Virus record (IMG/VR): IMGVR_UViG_3300001533_000595
Location: 636 to 24,169 of that record
DNA length: 23,534 bases
From: a virus
Direction: 5' to 3' (one strand)
The position numbers and the translations under genes are program-made. Below are positions 1,441 through 23,254 of the stretch, in pieces. Below the pieces are notes generated by a model. It was not told the origin of the DNA. It worked only from the letters and a program-made list of their open reading frames with translations, and ran no database searches. Position 1 is the first letter of the stretch, and every line of letters starts with the position of its first letter.

Positions 1441-2712
1441 TCAATAAACCAAGGATCTGAAAGTTTCCAGGAGCGTGCCAGGCTGGTGATATGACATGGT
1501 GAAAAACGTCGGGTGATCCCCCACCTCGTCCCACTCAACCGTTTCAGCGCAGCCGGCGCAGAGCTCAACGTCCGTGTACCCCGCGGAGCTGATCATCTCG
1601 ATGCGGGTCCAGGAGATCCCCGAGTCCGTGGAGATCCAGATCCGCGTGCCGATGTTCCCGATCACGAGGGTTCCGTACCCGTCGCACACGATCTGGGGGG
1701 CCGTGCCCGCGTAGATCGGCAGGGTTGCCCCTGCTGTCCAGGTCGCTCCGTTGTCGGAACTGTAGAACGTCCCGCCAGCGCCGATGACAGCGACCCACCG
1801 CCGGGTTACACGGTCATAGGCCGCACACTTCCGGGTTGCAGCGGCGCTGAAGCCGTGGAGCTGGTTACTCCAGGTGACGCCGTCGGCGGAGACAAGAGCT
1901 CGTGTCGTCGTCAGGATCAGCCAGGACTCGTTGCCCGAATCATCAGGCCCGAGTGCCCCCGCGGGGTGGTTCGTGTGCCCGATGAAGAAGACCTGCTCCC
2001 AGATGGCCAGCGGCGGGAATGTCGCCACGGCAGCGAAGTTCGCGCCGCCGTCAGACGAGAGGTAGACCGCAGGGGCTGCAGTGCCCCCTGCCCCGCTGTC
2101 GCCGATCAGGATCTCGTTCGCCGCTCGGTCGCACCCGACTGAGATCCAGTCGAGCGCTGGAGCCGCCGCGATGGTCGACAGAGCCCATGCACCCGCGCCG
2201 TAGCCGGCGGAGTAGAACACCCGATCAGTGATCGGAGGAGCAGAGCAGACCACGATCCTGTTGCCCGCGCCGTCGCTGTCCGCGTCGAGCGCCGCGGCCG
2301 GGCCGGGGATACCAGCCACGGGGCTGGATGACGGCACGTAAAAATTCCGCCCGTCCCTGCCCACTCGCTCAACGACGTTCCCCGGGCCCATGTCATCGTA
2401 GAAAAACAGGGATGTGACGAGCCCGCTCGTCGCGTCCGTCATGACACATGATGCCCCGAGGGTCTCCCCGCCCGCGGGGGCGTTCACGCTGTCCTCGAGG
2501 GTCCAGTTCGACGCGAAGAGCTTGGCCGCGAAGCGCTGGACCAGCGCCGAGCGATTGAGCTGCCAGTTGATGATATCCGGCGCGGGCTTGCGCTCCCGGT
2601 AGTAGCCGTCCTCCTTGTGGACGGTCAGCGGCGAGGTCTTCGTGCCGTGGCCGATATCCGGCCCTGCGACGTAAGCATCGTTCTCCGCCCAGGGATGGGG
2701 ACCAGGTCTCAT
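1441..2712 (-). CDS. BNR/Asp-box beta-propeller-like tail protein
   Basis: The product is 423 aa. Four Asp-box (BNR) motifs of the S-x-D-x-G-x-x-W/F type are visible: SSDGGANF (219-226), SADGVTW (275-281), SSDNGATW (318-325) and STDSGISW (361-368), each following a beta-hairpin pattern. Such repeats are typical of sialidase-like or photosystem-stability-factor-like propellers, and in phages they occur in tail spikes and fibres. The first ~120 residues carry no box and may be the virion-attachment part. A CAGC pair (385-388) lies near the C-terminus. No sialidase catalytic set can be claimed by eye, so binding is as likely as hydrolysis. ATG at 2712 overlaps the previous stop (ATGA). Confidence 0.75.
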   Translation of the reverse strand: MRPGPHPWAENDAYVAGPDIGHGTKTSPLTVHKEDGYYRERKPAPDIINWQLNRSALVQRFAAKLFASNWTLEDSVNAPAGGETLGASCVMTDATSGLVTSLFFYDDMGPGNVVERVGRDGRNFYVPSSSPVAGIPGPAAALDADSDGAGNRIVVCSAPPITDRVFYSAGYGAGAWALSTIAAAPALDWISVGCDRAANEILIGDSGAGGTAAPAVYLSSDGGANFAAVATFPPLAIWEQVFFIGHTNHPAGALGPDDSGNESWLILTTTRALVSADGVTWSNQLHGFSAAATRKCAAYDRVTRRWVAVIGAGGTFYSSDNGATWTAGATLPIYAGTAPQIVCDGYGTLVIGNIGTRIWISTDSGISWTRIEMISSAGYTDVELCAGCAETVEWDEVGDHPTFFTMSYHQPGTLLETFRSLVY

Positions 2713-2906
2713 TGACACACCTCTTCCAGCCCATCGACCCATGCACGGTCAGGCCCGATGATGATATCAGCTTCGTTGAGATCCGGCTCGAACTCCACAC
2801 AGCCGGGGAACAGGTCGAAGGCCTCCTGACAGGAGACGGGCTCCTGGCAGTAGATCCTGACAGGTTCAGGGGAGCAGCCCGAGAAAAACAGGAGGATCCA
2901 GAGCAT
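2709..2906 (-). CDS. Small phage lipoprotein
   Basis: The product is 65 aa, MLWILLFFSGC at the start. A hydrophobic segment (residues 2-8) is followed by F-S-G-C, an acceptable lipobox with Cys11 as the lipidated residue. Four more cysteines (20, 26, 36, 64) could form two disulfides, consistent with a periplasmic or outer-surface location. The mature part is acidic. ATG at 2906 overlaps the DUF2612 gene stop (TGATG) and has GGGGGAG about ten bases upstream. A TTG at 2930 would add an eight-residue N-region with one arginine. Lipoproteins beside receptor-binding genes in other phages (for example T5 Llp) block superinfection or receptor inactivation. The same role here is inference; a lysis spanin subunit is less likely because no partner is seen. 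Confidence 0.6.
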   Translation of the reverse strand: MLWILLFFSGCSPEPVRIYCQEPVSCQEAFDLFPGCVEFEPDLNEADIIIGPDRAWVDGLEEVCQ

Positions 2907-3541
2907 CAGTACACCACTCCCCCGGCCCAAGATCCGCCGGTCGTCTGTGTTGCCTCGGTCAGATCCCCGAAGCCCGCGGGGGCGTCCACCGAGTCAGCCC
3001 CCAGGGTGTCCGAGAACCTGAAGGTGCTCGCCGAGGGGGTCTCAGACCAGATCCAGTGCAGCGACACTCCACCGGGCTTCGCGGAGCCGATGATCTCCCC
3101 GATGAGATCCCCGTACTCCTCCCCGGAGATCCACAGCGTGAGCTCCCCGGGGTAGTATTCCGCGGCGTGGACCTCTGTCACCCCGAGGATCTCCAGGATA
3201 TCATAGAGTTCTTCGAGCCGCCCGTTGGATCGGTTGACCAGGATGCGCGCCAGGACATAGAGCCTGTATTGAGCATCGAGCATCCCGCGGCGGGACTGCC
3301 CGACAATCCGCCCGAGGACATCGAGCTGATCCCCGACCGCTGTGAGGGGCCACCGCCCGACGAGAACCTTGAAGGCCACATCCTCGATGCTCTGGAGCTG
3401 CTCCGTGAACGCTCGGAGCCATGCCTGAACCCGGGGCTGATCCCCGCGGTACTGCCACAGGAGCCGAGCGAAACCCATGTTGACGTGATCGAAGACCTGG
3501 AGGTCGTCGGTCCAGAGGGTCATGCTCCAGGATGTCGTCAT
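2906..3541 (-). CDS. DUF2612-like / P2 gpI-like baseplate-distal tail protein
   Basis: The product is 211 aa. The N-terminal ~120 residues are helical: FARLLWQYRG, then LTAVGDQLDVLGRIVGQSR, then YRLYVLARILVNRSNGRLEE. This is the pattern of DUF2612 and P2 gpI-type proteins (an LDxLGxIVGxxR-like element followed by an arginine-rich helix). These connect the baseplate wedge to tail fibres. The C-terminal ~60 residues (FRFSDTLGADSVDAPAGFGD) look like the short repeats often found where the protein meets fibres. It follows baseplate J and the Ig-like gene, the expected place for this role. ATG at 3541 overlaps the previous stop (ATGA). Confidence 0.72.
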   Translation of the reverse strand: MTTSWSMTLWTDDLQVFDHVNMGFARLLWQYRGDQPRVQAWLRAFTEQLQSIEDVAFKVLVGRWPLTAVGDQLDVLGRIVGQSRRGMLDAQYRLYVLARILVNRSNGRLEELYDILEILGVTEVHAAEYYPGELTLWISGEEYGDLIGEIIGSAKPGGVSLHWIWSETPSASTFRFSDTLGADSVDAPAGFGDLTEATQTTGGSWAGGVVY

Positions 3542-4230
3542 AACGTCAACCCCGTCACCGACGTGAGGTCGAGATCAAAGCGCCAGAGCTGCCCCGCGCG
3601 GGGCAGCTCCGGCCACCCGGAGAGCTCGATCAGGATCTCCCTGGGACCGTTCCCGATATCGTCGAGCTCAATGATCGAGCCCGTCCATCCTGCCTGGATG
3701 ACTCCCCCTGTGGTGGCCACCAGAGGCACGCCCACCGGGGGCACCACGGAGAGCTCGATCGTGCTCGTGTCGATGCCCCAGTCGTCCGTCACCTGAGCAT
3801 AGATCCTGGAGAGCTCCGTGGTCGTGCCCACGGGGCCGGAGTCCTGCAGAGCGGGCGCGTCCGCGCTCACGGTCCAGCCCCAGGAGTCCGAGTCAGTCTC
3901 CCCCAGGGTGTCGTCAACGGTGGCCGTAACAGACCAGATCCCGAGGTCCATCAACGGGTGTCCGGTGACCGCAACATCGAAGCCGTTCGAGCCGTTCGCA
4001 GTGATGGTCCCGCTCCATCCGGCCTGGAAGACCCCGTTGACGATGACGTCGATGGTGTTCGCATCGGGGTCCGTGAGCTCAAGCTGGATCGTGTTTTCAT
4101 CGACTTCGATGTCATCCGAGCAGGAGAACGAGATCAGGGCATCTGGGTTCACAATGCCCGAGGGGTTCTCCGGGGTGACAACCGGGGGGTCGTTGTAGAC
4201 CTCCGTGTCGTCTGCCTGCCACGCGCCCAT
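3538..4230 (-). CDS. Tail protein with two Ig/cadherin-like repeats
   Basis: The product is 230 aa. Two tandem ~100-residue repeats are visible, roughly 15-115 and 125-225. Both contain a strand of the form TIQLELT / TIELSVV followed about twenty residues later by VFQAGWSGTI / VIQAGWTGSI. The pattern (proline-rich entry, DDxxVD turn, alternating strands) is that of extracellular beta-sandwich domains of the Ig, Big or cadherin type. In phages these decorate tails and bind surface glycans weakly. No enzyme motif is seen. The gene sits between baseplate J and the DUF2612-like gene, so it is probably a baseplate-periphery component. ATG at 4230 overlaps the preceding gene's stop (TGATG). Confidence 0.7.
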   Translation of the reverse strand: MGAWQADDTEVYNDPPVVTPENPSGIVNPDALISFSCSDDIEVDENTIQLELTDPDANTIDVIVNGVFQAGWSGTITANGSNGFDVAVTGHPLMDLGIWSVTATVDDTLGETDSDSWGWTVSADAPALQDSGPVGTTTELSRIYAQVTDDWGIDTSTIELSVVPPVGVPLVATTGGVIQAGWTGSIIELDDIGNGPREILIELSGWPELPRAGQLWRFDLDLTSVTGLTL

Positions 4231-5399
4231 CAGACCACCGCCGCCGTGACGTCGCCGGACGAGATCGTGGCGATCTCCCGCGGGCCGATGATGATATCCG
4301 CCGCGGCCACAGCCGCCGGGTGAATGGACAGCCGGACCGCGACGACGTTCAGCACCCCGTCGAGATCTGAGACCTCCGCGGAGATCTTGGACCTGTAGAC
4401 CTCGTCACCGATCCCAGGAGGTCCGAAGGCTCCGACAAGGGTCTCAATGGCTGTCTCGAGGGCAGTGTCAGCGACCGTGCCGTCGGAGTTCACGTCCACC
4501 TCGACGAGTATCCGCTGCTCATCTGCCAGGGTATATCCGATGGTGTGCTCATTGCCCTGGGAGTCCTCCACGATCGTGGAGCTCGTGCCGTAGGCTTGAA
4601 TCCCCGCGGTCTTCTCCTCGAAGATCGCGGAGGCGATCTCATCCGTGTCAGCGGCTGCGGCCCCCCCGTCCCAGTAGACGATCTCGATAGAGTGTGGCGG
4701 CATGGGAGCTACGACTCGGTTCGTCGCGTTCTCGTAGCAGTAGACCTCGATGATCCCTGTGACCTGGCTCACTGCGGCGGCGATGGAGTCCACGGAGGTA
4801 GATCCCCCGGTCGTGACCTCGATCTCCCGGCGGAGTCGGAGCTCCGTGTCGGTCTCCTCCTCCGACCCCTCGACGGCGTCTGCAGCGTTCGTGACGGCTG
4901 TCCATCCTGCTACCGGTGTCGTGATGATCGTGATCGTCCCTGCGAGCGCCTGGAGCGCCCCCGCTGTGGCCGCTGTGGCGGTGCCCGTGTAGTCTCCCGC
5001 GGCCACGCTCGTCACGTCCTCGTCGAGGATCCACTGGTTGTCCGGGTCACCGGAGACCGAAGCGATGGACCCTGCAGGGACAGTGATCGCGGCCCCGAGG
5101 GTGAGGGTGAGAGTCACAGACCCGTGGGTGGCCGCGCGCCGATACGTCCCGGTGATCGAACTCACGGCGTCGAGGCTGCGGTTCGTGGCCTGATCAGGGT
5201 CGATGGCGGAGTGGAGTTCCTGGAGCAGCTCCGCAATGGCCTGGATCTGCTCGGTCTGGATCTTGATGAACTGCCCGGTGGGCTGGTCCGTTGAGACGTC
5301 GAGCACCGGGGAGATCGAAGCCCGAAGACCAGCGATCACCGTGGCGACACGGGTTGCGTAGTCGTCGATCTCCAGGCCTGTCGCTGTGAGCTGATCCAT
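4230..5399 (-). CDS. Baseplate J-like protein (wedge)
   Basis: The product is 389 aa. The baseplate J family hallmark is visible around residues 180-225: ETDTELRLRREIEVTTGG, then SVDSIAAAVSQVTGI, then VYCYENATN. This is the (S/T)Dx-E-LRxR...G...S...I...V..V.GI..V.V.EN pattern. A preceding strand-rich section (VPAGSIAS, WILDEDVTSVAAG) matches the usual domain before it, and VEVDVNSDGTV and GDEVYRSKISAEV match the C-terminal part. It is homologous to P2 gpJ and T4 gp6 wedge proteins that form the ring around the tube. ATG at 5399 overlaps the gp25-like gene stop (TAATG). Order gp25-like, J, then I-like is the classical myovirus order. Confidence 0.92.
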   Translation of the reverse strand: MDQLTATGLEIDDYATRVATVIAGLRASISPVLDVSTDQPTGQFIKIQTEQIQAIAELLQELHSAIDPDQATNRSLDAVSSITGTYRRAATHGSVTLTLTLGAAITVPAGSIASVSGDPDNQWILDEDVTSVAAGDYTGTATAATAGALQALAGTITIITTPVAGWTAVTNAADAVEGSEEETDTELRLRREIEVTTGGSTSVDSIAAAVSQVTGIIEVYCYENATNRVVAPMPPHSIEIVYWDGGAAAADTDEIASAIFEEKTAGIQAYGTSSTIVEDSQGNEHTIGYTLADEQRILVEVDVNSDGTVADTALETAIETLVGAFGPPGIGDEVYRSKISAEVSDLDGVLNVVAVRLSIHPAAVAAADIIIGPREIATISSGDVTAAVV

Positions 5400-7641: not shown

Positions 7642-8318
7642 CGTGAGGCCCCATAATCTTGGAGGGCTCCCCCGAGCTGAGAGAGAGCGGAAGCCCGTTG
7701 TCTCGGACCTGCCGGGGTGCTCGATTCGTCCCCCGTGTCCGCTGCCCGCTCCCGCCCCCGGTCCTTGCTCCTGCGCCCCCTCTCGACCCTGGGGCTCGGG
7801 ACGTCAATCTCCTCAAACTCCGCGGTCTGGATCTCCACGAGGGACACCGTGCAGACCAGAGCGCCCGCAGAGTCGACCTCCCGGGGCGCGGAGATCGACT
7901 CGATGGCCCATCCCTCGATGACGCGGCGCCCGCCTTCAACATCAACGAGAACACCGTCTCGACACAGCGCGCGGAGCTTCTCGAAAGCTCCCGCTGTCCT
8001 GGTCTCTGAGCCGTGATAGGACAGGACTGACGCGACACCGCCGCTGGGGAGGGACACGTCCGAGTAAGAGGCCGTCGAGCTGATCCGGAGGGGGGAGTTC
8101 GAGACGATCCCCACGAGGACCTCCCGGTCCTGGTTCGGGCGGATATGGTCTGTGATCGGTGCCCCGGTCTCCACGACGAGGGACGTCACAGTGGCGCTCA
8201 CGTCGTAGGTCTCGGTCTCGAGGACGTCGAAGGAGAGCTCCCCGAGGTCGTCGAGGATCTCATCCCCGCCCTCAGGAGTCGTGACCGTGCGCTCCCGGTT
8301 CCAGGAGATCGTGATCAT
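7638..8318 (-). CDS. Baseplate/distal tail protein (DUF6046 or Dit-like)
   Basis: The product is 226 aa. Residues 30-90 (DVLETETYDVSATVTSLVV, GAPITDHIRPNQDREVLVG) match the N-terminal pattern of phage baseplate proteins that follow the tape measure: a T-x-Y-x-x-x-x-T-x-x-x-V-E-x-G-x-x-I-x-D-H element. A second part (GAFEKLRALCRDGVLVDVEG, then REVDSAGALVCTVSLVEIQ) continues the fold. The last ~50 residues are Arg/Ser/Pro-rich and likely disordered. It probably lies at the tube-baseplate junction. ATG at 8318 overlaps the tape measure stop (ATGA). Confidence 0.72.
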   Translation of the reverse strand: MITISWNRERTVTTPEGGDEILDDLGELSFDVLETETYDVSATVTSLVVETGAPITDHIRPNQDREVLVGIVSNSPLRISSTASYSDVSLPSGGVASVLSYHGSETRTAGAFEKLRALCRDGVLVDVEGGRRVIEGWAIESISAPREVDSAGALVCTVSLVEIQTAEFEEIDVPSPRVERGRRSKDRGRERAADTGDESSTPAGPRQRASALSQLGGALQDYGASR

Positions 8319-9922
8319 GACGTGCCACCTTGCGCCGCTGCACCAGCGGGGAGAAGTGCTGCCTGGAGCTCCCTGTTCTGCCGCTCTTGGGCCGCCCGGA
8401 CCTTCGTCTCCACGATCCGTCCGACCTCTTGGGCGTCCGTGGCCTCGTTCGCCACGACGTTCACGGTCATCGGTGCCGTCACGGTCTGGTTCACCGGCTG
8501 GTTTCGCGGTGTCATGAGCAGATCAGCCCGAGGGCTCAACCCCCCGGCCCGGAAGCGGTCCGCTGCCGTGGGGGGCGGCGCGACGTCGGGCCGCACGGTC
8601 AGAAGGTGGGCCCGGGGGGCCTCCCCGCCGATCCGCCGTCTTTGAAGCGCCGTGGACTGCGCATCTGTGGCACTGGACCCCAGAGCAGCCCGCGCCATGG
8701 CCGGACCGACGACAGGGATCGAGCTGTAGAAGTCGCTCACGGCGCCTGAGAACCCCCGCTGAATATTTTGACCCTGTTGAAGCCCAAGCTCCCCAAAACC
8801 CCCGTCCTGCGACGAGTCGGTGAAGGCCGGGAGGTTGAGGAGCCCCGCGACGAAGTTGTACGTCTGGGACGCCCGCTGCTGGATCGCCTTCAACGCATCC
8901 GCCATCGCGTTGAGGGCCCTGGTCCCTGCGTTCGTGACCCCGACGAGCTCCCCGCCAGCGTCGATCAGATCCCGGATCACGGACTTGCCACCATTCATGC
9001 CGACCCAGAGGTCATCGATCACGAGGACCAGGGCAGCGACGGCGACGGCGATGACTGCGATGACAAGCGCCGTGGGGCTCATCGCGAGGAGCGCCGTCGT
9101 GGTGAGGGTGATGGCAGCGACGAGTCCCACGAGACCGACCTCCATGATGTGGGAGTGCTCCACGATGTCACCGACCCCGACGATCAGCCTGGTGAAGGTC
9201 CGGGTGATCCAGTTGATGGCGGGGATCACCCGGACGGCGATGGCGGACCTGAAGGAGTCGAAGGAGACCCGGAGGCGCGCCAGTGAGTCGGTCAACTCAA
9301 CGGATCTTCTGACCGCCAGCTCCGACAGACCTCCTCCGAGAGTATCCAGTTCTCGCTCGAGATCCTCCGTTCCGTTGGCTATCGAGGCAAGCATGGGCAT
9401 GAGCCTGGAGCCGGACTCACCCAAGATCCGTTGGGCGATGGCTGTGCGCTCCGTGCTGTTGGTCACTCCCTGAAGCCCGCGCCCTACAGCGATCAGCAGT
9501 TCCCGCCCGGTCAAGAGCTCCCCGTTGGCGTGCCGGACGTCTACCCCGAGCCGCCGGAAATAGTCCTGCTGCATTTGTCTCATCGACTGCGAGAATGCAG
9601 CCGCGTCGACACCCCCGAGCTGTGCGGCATGACGGAATACCTGGAGCTGTCGAACAGTGAGCCCGAGCTGTTGACTCGTCTTGTCAAGATCATCCCCAGC
9701 CCGGATTATCCCCCCGATGAACCGACCCATCGACCGGACCATCGCAGCGCCGCCGACGGCGACAGCGAGGCGCCCGAATGCAGAGCTCGCGGCCTGAACG
9801 ACAGGGGTGAGAGCGCGGAGCCTGTCGCGCACTTGATTGACGCTCTGGTTCCCCCGGGTGAGCTGTCGCCGAGGGTCGAAGCGGATATCGTACTCCGCGA
9901 AAATTTCCCGTAGTGCAGGCAT
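8315..9922 (-). CDS. Tail tape measure protein
   Basis: The product is 535 aa, short for the family. The N-terminal ~250 residues are helical with IIRAGDDLDKTSQQLGLTV and LQVFRHAAQLGGVDAAAFS, typical of tape measure proteins. A long hydrophobic region (261-303) resembles two membrane segments used during DNA entry. The C-terminal third is Pro/Ala/Arg-rich and ends in a helix (RIVETKVRAAQERQNRELQ). At about 0.15 nm per residue the tail would be near 80 nm. Its ATG at 9922 overlaps the stop of the short reading frame after the chaperone (TAATG). Confidence 0.9.
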   Translation of the reverse strand: MPALREIFAEYDIRFDPRRQLTRGNQSVNQVRDRLRALTPVVQAASSAFGRLAVAVGGAAMVRSMGRFIGGIIRAGDDLDKTSQQLGLTVRQLQVFRHAAQLGGVDAAAFSQSMRQMQQDYFRRLGVDVRHANGELLTGRELLIAVGRGLQGVTNSTERTAIAQRILGESGSRLMPMLASIANGTEDLERELDTLGGGLSELAVRRSVELTDSLARLRVSFDSFRSAIAVRVIPAINWITRTFTRLIVGVGDIVEHSHIMEVGLVGLVAAITLTTTALLAMSPTALVIAVIAVAVAALVLVIDDLWVGMNGGKSVIRDLIDAGGELVGVTNAGTRALNAMADALKAIQQRASQTYNFVAGLLNLPAFTDSSQDGGFGELGLQQGQNIQRGFSGAVSDFYSSIPVVGPAMARAALGSSATDAQSTALQRRRIGGEAPRAHLLTVRPDVAPPPTAADRFRAGGLSPRADLLMTPRNQPVNQTVTAPMTVNVVANEATDAQEVGRIVETKVRAAQERQNRELQAALLPAGAAAQGGTS

Positions 9923-18218: not shown

Positions 18219-19626
18219 CTGCGTCCTCGGGCTCGGGCTCCCCTGCCTGTGGAGGCTCGGGCTCGGGCACACCTTCAGCGACTCGCTCCAAGTCCATCTC
18301 CCGGAGCGAGCTCCGCGTCTCCATGTCGAGCTGGATCGGCCCGTCGTTGAACTCATCGCTGCTGAACCGGGTCTCAGCGACCTCGTCTTCCGTGACGACC
18401 CCGAGGTTGACGTAGATCTGGTCCGTCTCAGCGACAGTCTTATACCGGCCCGCCTGCTCCCCGGCGCTCTCCTGCCAGAGGGGGTTCCATTTGACGCCCC
18501 AGGTCTCGGGAGCGTCCGCGGCGGCGACGATGGCCGCGTAGTAGACCAGGGACTCGAGGAGCGGCTGGATCTTCTTCGTCCGCTCGGCCTGGATCTGGTC
18601 GTACCAGCCGCGGATGTCAGACTCCCCCGTGGCGTTGAGCCCCGCTGGAGACACCCCGAAGAGCACGGTCTGAGGAAGCCCTGCGGCGCCCGCGAGGTCC
18701 TTCCCGCCCCGGTCGAGGAGATCCGCTACCCCAGCGAAGGTGCGCTCGACATACTCGAAGGCCTCGCGCTCTGCGTCGATAGGGAGAATCCGCAGGGACC
18801 GGGCGACCTCCATGATCCTCATCCGGTTCGTGAAGACGGAGATCTCGTTCTCGCCGAGCATCCTGACGAAGTCCTGGATTTTCAGCACGGCTTGGCTGGC
18901 GTCCATGAGCATATGGCCCACACCCTGGTTCGCAGCGTCCCAAGCCCGGAGCTTCGGGTACAGGGCCTGAAGGACCGAGGCGTCACGCCACAAGTTCTCT
19001 GACCGCTTGCGCTTCGAGACCCGGAGGCCCCGGGTCAGGATCACCCGGCTCTCATGGACGAGCTCGGACTCCATGGTTGAGGTGCTCGTCCGCTGGATCT
19101 TCCAGATCTTCGGCTCCCCGTAGTGGGGCTCCGTTGGGTCGTCGTATGTCTCGAAGGCGTTAAACTCCTGGCAGGTCAGCGGCTCGATCCAGCGGAGCCC
19201 CCTGATCCTCTCCGGGCTCAAGGGCTCCTCGGGGTCCTGCCCGTCGTCCAGTCCGAGGAGCAGCCCCCCGCGCCCGTAGAGGCGCCCGTTGCACAAGGCC
19301 TCCTGGAGAGACCCTATGGCACCCTCCTGGGGATCTCCGACAGACCAGAGGATATCCAGGATGCCCTTCTTCATGTCCTCGATGGTCTCGGCGTCGAGCT
19401 GCCCGCCGTAGATGAGCTCGAAGCCGTTGCGGAAGGCTGCATGGATGGGCTCCTCGACGATCCGGCGGGCGTAGGCGTCCGAGTCCCGGAGGTCCTCCAG
19501 CTCATCGCAGTCGTACCAGATCTCCGGGTAGATCCTGTGGTACACCTGTTTGTCATAGGATGTCCCGAGCTGTGTGACCACGTTCTGCCAAGAGTCCGAC
19601 TTCACTAGTCTTTTCAAAAGGTTCAT
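18205..19626 (-). CDS. Portal protein (DUF1073 type)
   Basis: The product is 473 aa. The family signature PQTVLFGVSPAGLNATGESD followed by WYDQIQAERTKKIQPLLESL (328-370) is characteristic of DUF1073 portals. N-terminal IVEEPIHAAFRNGFEL and the G-R-L-Y-G-R-G-G-L-L-L element (about 114-124) also match. It forms the dodecameric ring for DNA passage. The last ~25 residues are a Pro/Glu repeat (PEPEPPQAGEPEPED). ATG at 19626 overlaps the large terminase stop (ATGA). Confidence 0.92.
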   Translation of the reverse strand: MNLLKRLVKSDSWQNVVTQLGTSYDKQVYHRIYPEIWYDCDELEDLRDSDAYARRIVEEPIHAAFRNGFELIYGGQLDAETIEDMKKGILDILWSVGDPQEGAIGSLQEALCNGRLYGRGGLLLGLDDGQDPEEPLSPERIRGLRWIEPLTCQEFNAFETYDDPTEPHYGEPKIWKIQRTSTSTMESELVHESRVILTRGLRVSKRKRSENLWRDASVLQALYPKLRAWDAANQGVGHMLMDASQAVLKIQDFVRMLGENEISVFTNRMRIMEVARSLRILPIDAEREAFEYVERTFAGVADLLDRGGKDLAGAAGLPQTVLFGVSPAGLNATGESDIRGWYDQIQAERTKKIQPLLESLVYYAAIVAAADAPETWGVKWNPLWQESAGEQAGRYKTVAETDQIYVNLGVVTEDEVAETRFSSDEFNDGPIQLDMETRSSLREMDLERVAEGVPEPEPPQAGEPEPEDADDPA

Positions 19627-21116
19627 TTCAACCCCTTCAAGATCTCCGCGTAGGCGGACGCAGATCCGGTCGACAGGTCCAGGAGCGCAAGGCTGGCCGC
19701 GGAGACCTGGTCATCATGCCGGGTCCCGAGGCCATCATAGGACAGGTGCTCTGCGACGAACCCATCGGACCCTCCGAGCCAGTCGGCGCTCTCCGGCAGC
19801 ATAACACACCCGCTCGCCCATGTACCCTCGACCTGTTGCACTCGAGCGAGACAGCCACCGCCGTGGGGGATGGAGATCAAGCCCCGGATCTCCCCCTTCA
19901 TGTCGTCTTCCATGGCTGAGGCATTGGCGGCGTCCTCCAACTTGCACGAGGAGGCGACCCTGTACCGGTCCGCGAACTCCCTGCCCCTCCGCTTCGTCTC
20001 CCGGAAGCCCCATTGCCCCCGGATCTGGTCGATGAGATAGTACAGACCCTGTCGCCGACACCAGAGCTGGAAGACCGCGAAGTCGGATGTTGACTTGCCC
20101 TTGAAGGTTAGGTCGGCGTAGATCCCCCAGATCTCCCCGGGGGCTGCTCTCCCGGACTCGAGGGACCGCTGCATGGAGCTCGGCAGGTGGCTGTACCGGT
20201 GCTCGAGATACTCCGGGCGGATCAGGTAGCCGCCGGGGGGCACGGGGCGTTGTTGGAGCTGCGCGGCGGCGCCGCTAGGACCCAACCGGATCTCCATCTC
20301 CTTGATAGCTTCCGCGTCGTACCTGGACGGCCAAAGGAGCTCTCCGGGCTTCCTTGGGTCGTCCGGGTGAGCGTAAGGGTGATCCGACTCGTAGACCATT
20401 GGGAGGCACACCACCTCGACATCCGGATCTTCTCGGACCCAGCGACCCCCCACGTCGTCAACGTGTATCCGCTGACCGACCTGGAGCTTCGTGGTCAAGC
20501 TCGGCTCTGCCTGCCGGGTTGCCAGATCCCCTGACCAGAACTCCCACGCAGCGGCGAGCTCAAGGCCGTTGGGTGCTCTGGCATCCTTGGTCTTGTTGAG
20601 GTCGTCGCCGCCGATGTCATGGAAGTGATTGCCCGTGATCTCACCGCCGACCGAACCGGAGAATCGAGCACCCTTGGCGTCGTTCTCGAAGAAGGCTGCA
20701 GCATGGGTGTTCTGATAGGGGATCTTCGCGCCCGGGAAGGTCTTCTGGTACCACTCCGAGTTGACCAGGTCACGCATACGGCGAGCGGACTTGAGCGCCA
20801 GCTTACCGCCGTAGGTCGTGTTACAGGAGATCCTCCGGGGGTCGAACGTCCAGACCCAGGCAGGGCCAAACACACTGGTCAAGAGGGTCTTCGTTGTCCC
20901 CGGAGGAACCCAGATGGACAGCTTCCGGATCTCCCGGCGGTAGAGGGCTTCGAGCCTGGAGCAGAGCAGATCATGGTGCCAGTTCCACTCGAGGGCCGTG
21001 GGTATGACGTGTGGCCACGCCAGCCGGATGAACGCCGCGAGACCGCCGGCTTCAACGGCTCGACGTTGAAGAGCTTCGACGGAGAGGCCCTGGAGGATGC
21101 GGGCGGGGGAGCCCAT
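19623..21116 (-). CDS. Terminase large subunit
   Basis: The product is 497 aa from ATG at 21116; a GTG one codon earlier is possible. Numbering here counts from the GTG. An ATPase part has a Walker A-like WVPPGTTKTLLTS (70-82) with Thr in place of the usual second Gly, and a Walker B-like HDIGGDDLNK (167-176). The nuclease part shows the three acidic sites: IYADLTFKG (Asp336), KLEDAANA (Asp396) and GTRHDDQVSA (Asp469/470). It pumps DNA through the portal and cuts it. Its start overlaps the glycosyltransferase stop, so the two are translationally coupled. Confidence 0.93.
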   Translation of the reverse strand: MGSPARILQGLSVEALQRRAVEAGGLAAFIRLAWPHVIPTALEWNWHHDLLCSRLEALYRREIRKLSIWVPPGTTKTLLTSVFGPAWVWTFDPRRISCNTTYGGKLALKSARRMRDLVNSEWYQKTFPGAKIPYQNTHAAAFFENDAKGARFSGSVGGEITGNHFHDIGGDDLNKTKDARAPNGLELAAAWEFWSGDLATRQAEPSLTTKLQVGQRIHVDDVGGRWVREDPDVEVVCLPMVYESDHPYAHPDDPRKPGELLWPSRYDAEAIKEMEIRLGPSGAAAQLQQRPVPPGGYLIRPEYLEHRYSHLPSSMQRSLESGRAAPGEIWGIYADLTFKGKSTSDFAVFQLWCRRQGLYYLIDQIRGQWGFRETKRRGREFADRYRVASSCKLEDAANASAMEDDMKGEIRGLISIPHGGGCLARVQQVEGTWASGCVMLPESADWLGGSDGFVAEHLSYDGLGTRHDDQVSAASLALLDLSTGSASAYAEILKGLK

Positions 21117-21961
21117 CACGTCTTTCTGAGCTCTTCAGGGATGATTTGAGCAACAGCCTTGCTCCAGTTGATCGAGTGGTGGAGACGGGGATTCGTGTTA
21201 TGGAACTTCACGCGGACGCATACGGAGGAGGGGCTCGACATGACCGTATAGAAGCTCTTGATATACGTCCCTGCGTCGAGATATAAATCTGTCATCCCTC
21301 CGGCGTTGCTCTGGGTCTGCTTTTGCTTGAGGTCCACCATCCGCACCGCCAAGAACAGATCCCCGCGACTCCCTCCGAGCACATAGGTGTTAACATCCTC
21401 ATTGATCCGACCGTGGAAGGTGAAGGGCCGCTCCGTTGAACAGATAAACGAGTTCATGGTCTTGCGGACGCTGAACCCGAAGGGGTTCCCTCCCATGAAG
21501 TCCCCGCCCTGGGCCATGGCGATTGTCAAAGCATCAATGCTTTCAAAGTAGTCAACCATGGAGGACCAGATAGCATCGAGATCTTTAATAGAAAGAGTTC
21601 TCATCAGGTATTTCTTCGCGCCATCCCACCTATACCGGAAAAGTGTATAGTCGTCATCAAGCTCAATGAAGTATTTGAACCCTCGCTCCTTAGCGAGGTC
21701 AAAGCAGACGTTGCGGGCATAGATGATAGCCCGCCGGTCACCGAAGTTGTCCCCCTCGTCAATGGTGTTGGCGACCCCTAGCTTGTCAAAGACGATGACC
21801 TTGTCCCCGAATCGCTCCCGGTACTTGTCCACGGTCTTGTCTTCATTATCCACGACGATGAAGACAGGCCCGGTATATCCGCATCTCCCCAGGGTGTTGA
21901 AGGTGATGACTCGGTCTGCCCTGCCGTGCGTGAGGATGAACGCGCAAAAGTCAGGCCTCAT
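21116..21961 (-). CDS. Predicted DNA-modification glycosyltransferase, TAGT/GREB1-like
   Basis: The product is 281 aa. The N-terminus FCAFILTHGRADRV (5-18), then YTGPVFIVVDNEDKTVDKY (29-47), then VANTIDEGDNFGDRRAIIYA (63-82), is a GT-A-type fold. FIELDDDYTLFRYRW (98-112) carries the metal-binding DxD. GRINEDVNTYVLGGSRGDLF (174-193) supplies the later acidic/aromatic site and QSNAGGMTDLY (207-217) the final loop. This matches my recollection of the TET-associated glycosyltransferase family found in phages and in the GREB1 C-terminus, which is predicted to add sugar to oxidised pyrimidines in DNA. No TET/JBP enzyme lies in the window. Start 21961 overlaps the ParB gene; an earlier in-frame start gives Ser/Thr-rich shadow sequence. 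G+C is about 53%, lower than its neighbours. Confidence 0.78.
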   Translation of the reverse strand: MRPDFCAFILTHGRADRVITFNTLGRCGYTGPVFIVVDNEDKTVDKYRERFGDKVIVFDKLGVANTIDEGDNFGDRRAIIYARNVCFDLAKERGFKYFIELDDDYTLFRYRWDGAKKYLMRTLSIKDLDAIWSSMVDYFESIDALTIAMAQGGDFMGGNPFGFSVRKTMNSFICSTERPFTFHGRINEDVNTYVLGGSRGDLFLAVRMVDLKQKQTQSNAGGMTDLYLDAGTYIKSFYTVMSSPSSVCVRVKFHNTNPRLHHSINWSKAVAQIIPEELRKT

Positions 21962-22739
21962 CGGGATAATCCTTGTTGTACTGGTCCGCGATATCATCCG
22001 CGAGCTTGACGTAGCCAAGTTCGATTGCCCGGTTGAAGTCGATGATGACGAGAGCAGAGTCCTCCATGAGCCGCTGGATCTCCTTTGGAGCGTGGGCGTA
22101 GAACTCCGCGATCTTCTTATAGTCGAAGATGGTGTGCCGACATGCTGCCATCAACAAGAACGTCTCGATATCTTTCGGCAAGCCTGCGGCTGCAACAGCA
22201 TCCGAGAGCTTAGATGTTTTCGAGTCATCGTAGAGGCTGTTGACCGGAGGATTATCTCCGGTCGGGCGGTATATCGGGGCCTCCACCTTCTTTGTGTAGA
22301 CTTCCTCGTATTCTTTCTCAGGCTCTTCCACGTCTACCAAAGGGATCTGGTCCAGCAGCCCATCAATATCTAGCCCGCTCACGTAATCATCGATGTGGAT
22401 CTCTTCGATGAGGAGCTCCAGCTCAGCAAAGTCCCACTCGCTCAACTCCCCGAGCCTGTTGTCAGAGACCATCCTGGCGAGGGCCTGGGGCTCGTCATCG
22501 TCTACACGGATCACAGGGACCTCTTCGAGCCCGAGCTTCCGTGCTGCCGCGAGGCGCCCGTGACCGATGAGGAGCTCCCCATCAGGGAGCGCGACCAAGG
22601 CGGAGTGCCAGCCGAACTCCTCTAGGGCCGCAGAGATGGCCTTGACGTCGTGCTTGATCCGGGGGTTCCTGGGGTTGGGCCGGATCTGATCGATGGGTGT
22701 CAGGAGGGGGCGGAGGCCATCAGGGCAATGGACGGTCAT
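21951..22739 (-). CDS. ParB/Srx-fold protein with unusual C-terminal domain
   Basis: The product is 262 aa. Residues 1-105 are a ParB N-terminal-type domain: IRPNPRNPRIKHDVKAISAA, then ELLIGHGRLAAARKLGLEEV with the G-H-G-R motif (59-62), then MVSDNRLGELSEWD (90-103). There is no helix-turn-helix/KorB partition domain and no methyltransferase. Instead residues ~148-262 form a separate domain: KKVEAPIYRPTG, SLYDDSKTSKLSDA, AACRHTIFDYKKIAEFYAHA, then EDSALVIIDFNRAIELGYVK. I recall this C-terminal pattern in other phage proteins but know no function. ParB-type domains in phages act as nucleases, CTP-binding proteins or modification partners. Overlaps TerS (ATGA) and the glycosyltransferase (11 bases). 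Confidence 0.82.
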   Translation of the reverse strand: MTVHCPDGLRPLLTPIDQIRPNPRNPRIKHDVKAISAALEEFGWHSALVALPDGELLIGHGRLAAARKLGLEEVPVIRVDDDEPQALARMVSDNRLGELSEWDFAELELLIEEIHIDDYVSGLDIDGLLDQIPLVDVEEPEKEYEEVYTKKVEAPIYRPTGDNPPVNSLYDDSKTSKLSDAVAAAGLPKDIETFLLMAACRHTIFDYKKIAEFYAHAPKEIQRLMEDSALVIIDFNRAIELGYVKLADDIADQYNKDYPDEA

Positions 22740-23254
22740 ACTCTCTCCAGCTTCGCCAGGAGAACCAACAGGTGTTCTGCTTCCTCCCCGGATAGCCGGG
22801 AGAGGTCCAGCTCGGTCTCGCTCGTCTCGATCCGCTCAGTGGCCTCGCCGACGATGAGCCGCTCGAGCTCCGTGGCGTGCTTGACCAGGGTCATGGCCGT
22901 GCGCGCATCAATGCCCGCTGATCCGGTGTTCTTGGCCTGGAGCAAGAACTCCTTCAGGGCCAGGGTGCCGAGGTGCCTAGCCATCCGAAGAGCGCTGAGC
23001 TGGTCCTTCGCCATCTTTTGGGCCTCGGTCAGGACTACATCCTGCTCCAGCTTGACGACCCGCTCATCCCAGGCGAGGAGCCGCTCAGCCCATTTGAACC
23101 TGGAGCTGTAGTGGCGCATCACGCTCACGCTCTTCTTCTTTTGCATTGCGAAGGTGACAAGGCTCGGACGGGGTACCCCGCGCATGAGGTACTCACGGAA
23201 CAAGGAGAACGGCACTGGTCCCTCTCCCTCTTGTCTATCCCATGGATCTGCCAT
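22736..23254 (-). CDS. Terminase small subunit
   Basis: The product is 172 aa. The N-terminus FSLFREYLMRGVPRPSLVTF with RHYSSRFKWAERLLAWDER (46-64) is a DNA-binding helical part typical of phage small terminases. A helical oligomerisation part (ALRMARHLGTLALKEFLLQA, TAMTLVKHATELERLIVGEA) follows. The C-terminal tail ELDLSRLSGEEAEHLLVLLA likely contacts TerL. It recognises the packaging site. The start at 23254 overlaps the stop of the upstream gene (TGATG), and its own Shine-Dalgarno is weak. Unusually, two genes separate it from TerL. Confidence 0.8.
   Translation of the reverse strand: MADPWDRQEGEGPVPFSLFREYLMRGVPRPSLVTFAMQKKKSVSVMRHYSSRFKWAERLLAWDERVVKLEQDVVLTEAQKMAKDQLSALRMARHLGTLALKEFLLQAKNTGSAGIDARTAMTLVKHATELERLIVGEATERIETSETELDLSRLSGEEAEHLLVLLAKLERV

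Follow-up and report, generated by a model that had tools for sequence, protein, structure and literature searches.

The TET-associated glycosyltransferase (TAGT) of phages T2 and T6, beta-glucosyl-HMC-alpha-glucosyltransferase, adds a second glucose to glucosyl-hydroxymethylcytosine in DNA (PMC13216743 and PMC13390438, as excerpted). It belongs to Pfam family PF20691, and the excerpted PMC13216743 assigns it a GT-A fold by a model. According to the same excerpt, TAGTs occur without an alpha- or beta-glycosyltransferase (GT) in 288 of 753 GT-bearing phage genomes, and novel transferases were suggested. Here we describe a TAGT of the same Pfam family, encoded together with a partner protein in a stretch of viral DNA (the window), which covers 23,534 of the 24,169 bases of IMG/VR virus record IMGVR_UViG_3300001533_000595. 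The clade of the window TAGT probably belongs among the solitary TAGTs of PMC13216743, a paper whose main text never uses the words ParB, terminase, partner or Rac prophage. The window type extends this group by a partner, a rule of gene order and an example that is common in E. coli. New here is the partner domain, which we call the constant TAGT-partner domain (CTD): no Pfam or NCBIfam model was found for it, it stands with this TAGT clade in every sampled uncut locus, and the ParB-like head in front of it is optional.

The T-even TAGT acts in phages that make hydroxymethylcytosine (hmC), whereas the window type is accompanied by a CTD and, in most cases, by no hydroxymethylase that we could detect. 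The window TAGT is 23-24% identical to relatives in the T4-like phage Aeh1 and in Vibrio phage 1.076.O, a comparison in which the T2/T6 enzyme was not included. Phage pathways with TET, C5-methyltransferase and glycosyltransferase genes were reportedly described by Iyer 2013 and Burke 2021, and there a TAGT-type enzyme is likewise found in the phage. Phage DNA methyltransferases carry a ParB/Srx-fold head similar to that of the window partner by profile match (phrog_498, 3.3e-25; PADLOC MTase_II, 6.3e-17), but the window head leads into the CTD and a separate glycosyltransferase, not into a methyltransferase domain. In phage Mu, Mom illustrates how few genes can modify phage DNA that is otherwise ordinary, and do so late; that enzyme is not known to be related to TAGT, the likeness is in the way of working only, and no homology is claimed. 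ParB domains recur in phage base-hypermodification neighbourhoods. Our literature search found nothing linking ParB with hypermodification or TET-associated enzymes, and nothing on a Rac-prophage glycosyltransferase with a terminase. In their available portions, the MetaGPA and archaeal-virus papers do not mention ParB or glycosyltransferase, and the phage-eta paper reports a ParB homologue and no modified bases.

The TAGT gene lies at 21116..21961 on the minus strand and encodes 281 residues. The protein scores 106.2 bits against PF20691 (2.8e-30), where the Pfam gathering cut-off is 27.5, and matches phrog_842 at 6.7e-73. Its AlphaFold2 model (pLDDT 82.8, pTM 0.85) resembles GnT-I (Z 13.0, rmsd 4.1 over 187 residues), ThuS (Z 12.9, rmsd 4.0 over 201 residues) and protein O-mannose GlcNAc-transferase (Z 12.6, rmsd 3.8 over 179 residues) in the PDB; matches differing by less than 1 Z are counted as tied. 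The metal motif DDDY, at residues 102-105, is kept in all 195 TAGT relatives. The window protein is a genuine member of the TAGT family, with a GT-A fold and an aspartate metal motif, in agreement with what a sequence-only reading had proposed for it, the DxD included.

The partner gene (21951..22739, minus strand; phrog_620, 1.4e-40) encodes 262 residues, with a ParB/Srx-fold head at about residues 10-118 and the CTD at about residues 148-255 (21972..22298, minus strand; 1e-45 to a profile of the window CTD and its relatives). The head superimposes on ParB 7bnr with Z 12.7 and rmsd 1.7 over 89 residues (10-98), and the fold matches cover mainly residues 6-118; the Pfam ParB_N model gives 17.6 bits, below its cut-off of 26.3. 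The CTD, about 108 residues long, is helical in the model of the partner protein, with high confidence at about residues 161-230. No convincing solved relative of it was found (best E 0.033 in the PDB search, Z at most 2.8 in the fold comparisons). When 22 partner proteins are aligned, the invariant residues fall nearly all in the last 110 or so positions, for example Y148, P155, Y157, R201, H202, Y214, Q222, E226 and D234. Both genes are under purifying selection: dN/dS is 0.00-0.18 among 23 close TAGT pairs, which are not independent of each other, and for the partner gene 16 close pairs gave 0.009-0.34.

The co-occurrence of the two genes is close to exclusive in our samples. A first scan of IMG/VR gave 38 loci with TAGTs 49-58% identical; in 35 of them the gene directly upstream is related to the ParB-type gene, with overlaps of 4-110 bases between the called open reading frames (ORFs); the other three contigs end within the TAGT gene. 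Among 50,697 phage records 45 match the TAGT, and the 40 listed include nine E. coli phages, one Salmonella phage, Nocardia phage NTR1, Lactobacillus, Vibrio and Aeromonas phages, the haloarchaeal HHTV-2, a Porphyromonas phage and a faecal phage. The CTD was found in 28 phage records (a few of them GenBank/RefSeq doubles), all of them the best TAGT records, and in none without TAGT, as judged by comparing two lists by hand (with 40 of the 45 TAGT records listed). The Porphyromonas CTD, too distant for this search, was detected by profile only. A scan of genome contigs returned a single locus, from a Bacteroidetes metagenome-assembled genome.

Profiles of the CTD and the TAGT found at least 586 and at least 570 IMG/VR relatives, respectively; the best 80 CTD loci all have a TAGT and the best 80 TAGT loci all have a CTD, although relatives more distant than these may behave differently. 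The two samples contain 76 and 66 distinct sequences by the last 200 TAGT residues, with 15 in common and nine also among L002-L039 (L numbers denote loci). CTD and TAGT genes are adjacent in 159 of these 160 best-scoring loci. Taken with the directly upstream partners and the shared phage records, these counts led us to reject chance neighbourhood. Among ten isolate carriers, TAGT is present in ten, the partner in nine and any other gene family in at most five (ORFs clustered by blastp at E 1e-4, which misses distant homologues).

Some loci depart from the usual form. In L148 the two genes are separated by one (1509-2342) that looks by eye like an S-adenosylmethionine (SAM) methyltransferase, has no Pfam match and could possibly methylate the added sugar. 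L194 holds a tandem CTD-TAGT-CTD-TAGT (2107-4617) with near-identical CTDs and diverged TAGT copies, which suggests two acceptors or two sugars; a fragment of an N6/N4 DNA methyltransferase and a DnaB-like helicase precede it and a radical SAM gene follows. In two Lactobacillus delbrueckii phages (L044:848-1713 and L049:75-833), the TAGT of phiLdb is annotated as two ORFs, and Ld17, the isolate carrier without a partner, has a shortened TAGT. The pair thus seems to be dispensable and decaying there.

The head is much more variable than the rest of the module. Among 195 loci with a CTD, 166 have a recognised ParB head, three a divergent ParB-like one, 21 are headless and five are cut; the start of L015, counted as headless, is probably missing. 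The CTD alone forms a 139-residue gene upstream of TAGT in Vibrio phage pv27, and this protein is matched over its full length in five further Vibrio phages. Across 101 cluster representatives with a recognised head, pairwise identity has a median of 31.6% in the heads, 50.9% in the CTD and 50.5% in TAGT, and in six of 123 pairs whose TAGTs are at least 65% identical the heads are less than 35% identical. Four changes are needed to place the headless label, borne by 10 of 127 rows, on a TAGT tree, and at least three of them are forced by well-supported branches; none of 500 shuffles was as low, by a quick method on a tree with weak deep forks. The window TAGT falls in a ten-row group (98*) together with L173, which is headed, a headless clade of three, and other rows. 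Because of the low head identity and the headless lineages, we regard the head as exchangeable and losable while CTD and TAGT stay together.

Judged from sequence comparison, the conserved partner of TAGT is the CTD and not the ParB domain. The earlier reading stands as far as the ParB-fold neighbour is concerned; what changes is which part of the partner protein is the constant one. A ParB domain as essential partner was rejected, as it is missing in Vibrio jumbo phages and several IMG/VR lineages. Also rejected was a role in plasmid partition: GERR, the CTP-binding motif of ParB, occurs in none of 101 partner heads (89 have G[HN]xR), and there was no TAGT match in 72,556 plasmid records, searched with TAGT and not with the CTD. 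Plasmids account for three of 1,001 TAGT places in E. coli.

In the window the minus-strand gene order is small terminase subunit (TerS; 172 residues, 22736..23254, phrog_6299, 6.6e-17), partner, TAGT, large terminase subunit (TerL; 19623..21116, phrog_38, 1.5e-65), portal, Mu-F-like protein, protease, cement and major capsid. TerS and partner overlap by ATGA, partner and TAGT by 11 bases, and the TerL start codon is the ATG at 21116-21114 within the TGATG shared with the TAGT stop, through which TerL is predicted to be translationally coupled to TAGT. This placement between the terminase genes had been read correctly from the sequence.

To see how general the placement is, lineages were defined as TAGT clusters at 90% and counted only where 2.4 kb of downstream DNA was present (41 of 104 headed, four of nine headless). 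A co-directional ORF of at least 350 residues starts within 1.6 kb in 39 of the 41 headed lineages, L009 and L216 being the exceptions. These large ORFs match large-terminase families, namely phrog_2 (23), phrog_15 (10), phrog_38 (4), phrog_9 (2) and others. In the PHROG neighbour scans the ORFs were chosen by length (in two of the scans, 64 of the 92 downstream ORFs and 38 of the 51 upstream ones), and the output consists of family counts, individual matching members not being given. Several terminase families are represented among the large genes adjoining the pair, with a mean column identity of 11%. The pair stands upstream of TerS in E. coli, L. gasseri and Porphyromonas phages. A Salmonella phage apparently has the same order, but its TerS-like gene is annotated as hypothetical, and in HHTV-2 TerL comes 2.9 kb past the pair with about nine small genes between. 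The proposed coupling to packaging genes is thus retained as a recurrent tie, the order TerS-pair-TerL being one arrangement among several.

Headless pairs have other neighbours. A large downstream ORF is present in one of the four headless lineages and encodes a radical SAM protein, and the headless pair of Vibrio pv27 is flanked by genes for primase/exonuclease and for helicase. The 35 neighbouring ORFs scanned from 11 headless loci match helicase/primase, primosomal and replication-initiation families (four each) and the DNA methyltransferase family phrog_498 (three). The tie between head and packaging gene is a repeated pattern, on small headless numbers. In L124 (223-2450) and L152 (1-1742) the headless pair is preceded by a gene that by eye seems to combine a GNAT domain with a DNA methylase, and then by a cysteine-rich gene without a Pfam match; for the first of these genes, Pfam N6_N4_Mtase gives a match below its cut-off in L152 and none in L124.

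We give about even chances to the reading that the pair is a two-protein glycosylation system which acts on phage DNA and does not need phage-made 5-hydroxymethylcytosine (5hmC). DNA is favoured as the target because the heads resemble those on DNA methyltransferases, because headless pairs are mostly found among replication and DNA-modifying genes, and because the adjoining terminases differ widely while the pair is constant. TAGT would be the catalyst, a GT-A enzyme using a nucleotide-sugar and a divalent metal at DDD. The CTD would serve it as a dedicated partner that probably binds TAGT, an acidic domain facing a basic enzyme, and that presents or stabilises it. The ParB/Srx-like head that most lineages have fused to the CTD would bring the enzyme to phage DNA late in infection, around packaging, whereas headless pairs, mostly with replication genes, would modify DNA during synthesis. 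The product may shield packaged DNA from restriction or CRISPR-type defences.

Several observations weigh against this reading. We know of no carrier phage whose DNA has been analysed. The CTD clade lies far from T-even-like TAGTs (tree branch 6.3), so the substrate may have changed. Pairwise identities correlate hardly better between CTD and TAGT (Spearman 0.31) than between head and TAGT (0.28) or head and CTD (0.22), and co-evolution therefore gives little support for binding of CTD and TAGT. The charge difference (TAGT median pI 9.0, window copy 8.2; CTD pI 5.0) was compared without a control set, and a basic pI is weak evidence. Headless neighbours also match large-terminase families (phrog_15 in two and phrog_979 in one of the 35 ORFs), modifying enzymes are close to the pair in few lineages, and a TET/JBP search that gave 0 of 26 carriers was equally silent on its positive control. 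Finally, the best fold matches of TAGT are protein and polysaccharide glycosyltransferases, and GT-A folds also serve enzymes acting on proteins, lipids and sugars.

The last point also speaks for an unlikely alternative: that the substrate is a protein of the virion, the terminase or the host, to which TAGT adds the sugar while the CTD holds the enzyme, the location of the pair reflecting a head or packaging substrate. NCBI names some of the E. coli TAGTs "GREB1-related" (others are hypothetical), and GREB1 acts on a protein; the lack of a C5-methyltransferase or thymidylate-synthase-like enzyme in most carriers fits a protein target as well. A specific terminase substrate is unlikely, since the neighbouring terminases have 11% mean column identity and TAGT and CTD about 50%. 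A protein target also sits poorly with headless pairs that adjoin replication and DNA-methyltransferase genes, and the T2/T6 enzyme, the only phage TAGT for which we found a description of activity, acts on DNA (PMC13216743, as excerpted).

If DNA is the target, the origin of the acceptor has to be considered. We searched 26 carrier records of our own choice, in which IMG/VR members may be fragments, together with 14 control genomes. Unlike in the phage TET pathways, a C5-methyltransferase was found in only one of the 26 (controls 10 of 14): in the L039 contig it is the second gene after TAGT. Thymidylate-synthase-like genes were found in three (T4-like Aeh1, Vibrio pv27 and G012; controls nine of 14), and the pv27 copy is annotated as plain thymidylate synthase, beside DHFR. 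No thymidylate-synthase-fold gene was found in the E. coli, Salmonella, Nocardia, Lactobacillus, HHTV-2 and Porphyromonas records searched, and neither enzyme was found in the window's own 24-kb fragment. Of the three possibilities left by the sequence-only reading (a methyltransferase or oxygenase elsewhere in the phage, one from the host, or another acceptor), the first is not supported as a necessity by these counts. The counts suggest that phage-made hmC is not a precondition; with DNA as target, the acceptor in E. coli-type carriers would, as far as gene content tells, not be 5hmC from any detectable kind of phage enzyme.

The ordinary route, in which a diverged phage or host enzyme makes a hydroxymethylated or otherwise oxidised pyrimidine that TAGT decorates as in the TET or T-even pathways, is rated as quite improbable. 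It has in its favour the family name and the T-even precedent (PMC13390438 and PMC13216743, as excerpted), the methyltransferase beside the pair in L039, the three thymidylate-synthase-like genes and the silent TET control. The rarity of both enzymes compared with the controls stands against it, as do the plain annotation in pv27, the window fragment, the lack of a third gene shared by more than five of the ten isolate carriers, and Lactobacillus phage c5, among whose 50 annotated genes none is annotated as an acceptor-making enzyme. Three hypothetical proteins of c5 that were scanned have no Pfam match, and the seven genes scanned in E. coli phage 673R7 either hit DUF or DNA-binding families or have no match. 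A 492-residue ORF at 1207-2685 of L057 (the contig of L038) has a partial thymidylate-synthase-like match (3.5e-16).

Other base-modifying enzymes are also infrequent. An N6/N4 methyltransferase was found in seven of 33 records at E 0.001, five of them above the cut-off. Queuosine-type base exchange as a general source of acceptor was rejected: TGT (PF01702) occurs in 0 of 31 records, with 14 of 14 controls positive, and phrog_887, of queuine tRNA-ribosyltransferase type, in one of 39 (0 of 33 and one of six further). The single case is L004, where a phrog_887 gene (7666-8403, 3.2e-75) follows about 0.8 kb after the TAGT of a headless pair; a PDB search with its protein gave no match, and it is possibly a DNA base-exchange enzyme.

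That a basic TAGT glycosylates a host target and an acidic CTD restrains it in toxin-antitoxin fashion is very improbable: the overlapping genes, opposite charge, exclusive pairing and accessory nature of the pair (as in Ld17) would fit, but such a scheme does not explain why the CTD is fused to ParB-like heads or why the pair lies beside terminase genes.

A common example of the pair is found in E. coli. At least 80% of the length of the TAGT gene is present in 865 of 5,426 complete E. coli genomes; the two-gene stretch or a part of it is matched in 1,572, and at least 80% of the stretch in 885. We inspected the Rac context in two genomes (MB50 and 2FA) and in the 673R7 phage record. E. coli phage 673R7 has the order trkG, pair, a 69-residue ORF, TerS and TerL, which is shared by the Rac prophage of strain MB50. 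The Rac prophage of strain 2FA has lost TAGT and the terminases, and its ynaK is an 87-residue stump directly before ydaY. DH1 and BW25113 show the same 254-base match as this stump; ynaK of K-12-type strains is a remnant of the partner gene. In MB50 (L053:12001-13717) an incomplete ynaK is followed by a TAGT that is not flagged as broken, within a Rac prophage scarred by insertion sequences.

As a tentative extension, which we regard as somewhat unlikely, the sugar would be put, shortly before packaging, on a canonical, non-hydroxymethylated base or on another group of the completed phage DNA, by a self-sufficient system in which exchangeable ParB-like heads choose the sites. About one in six E. 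coli genomes would carry this system, at the inspected sites in Rac-type prophages, with ynaK as its remnant in K-12-type strains. The findings turn the question of what solitary TAGTs do into a two-gene problem accessible in E. coli. With DNA as the target, a modified base may have been overlooked in common temperate phages, and it would bear on restriction, CRISPR and phage engineering.

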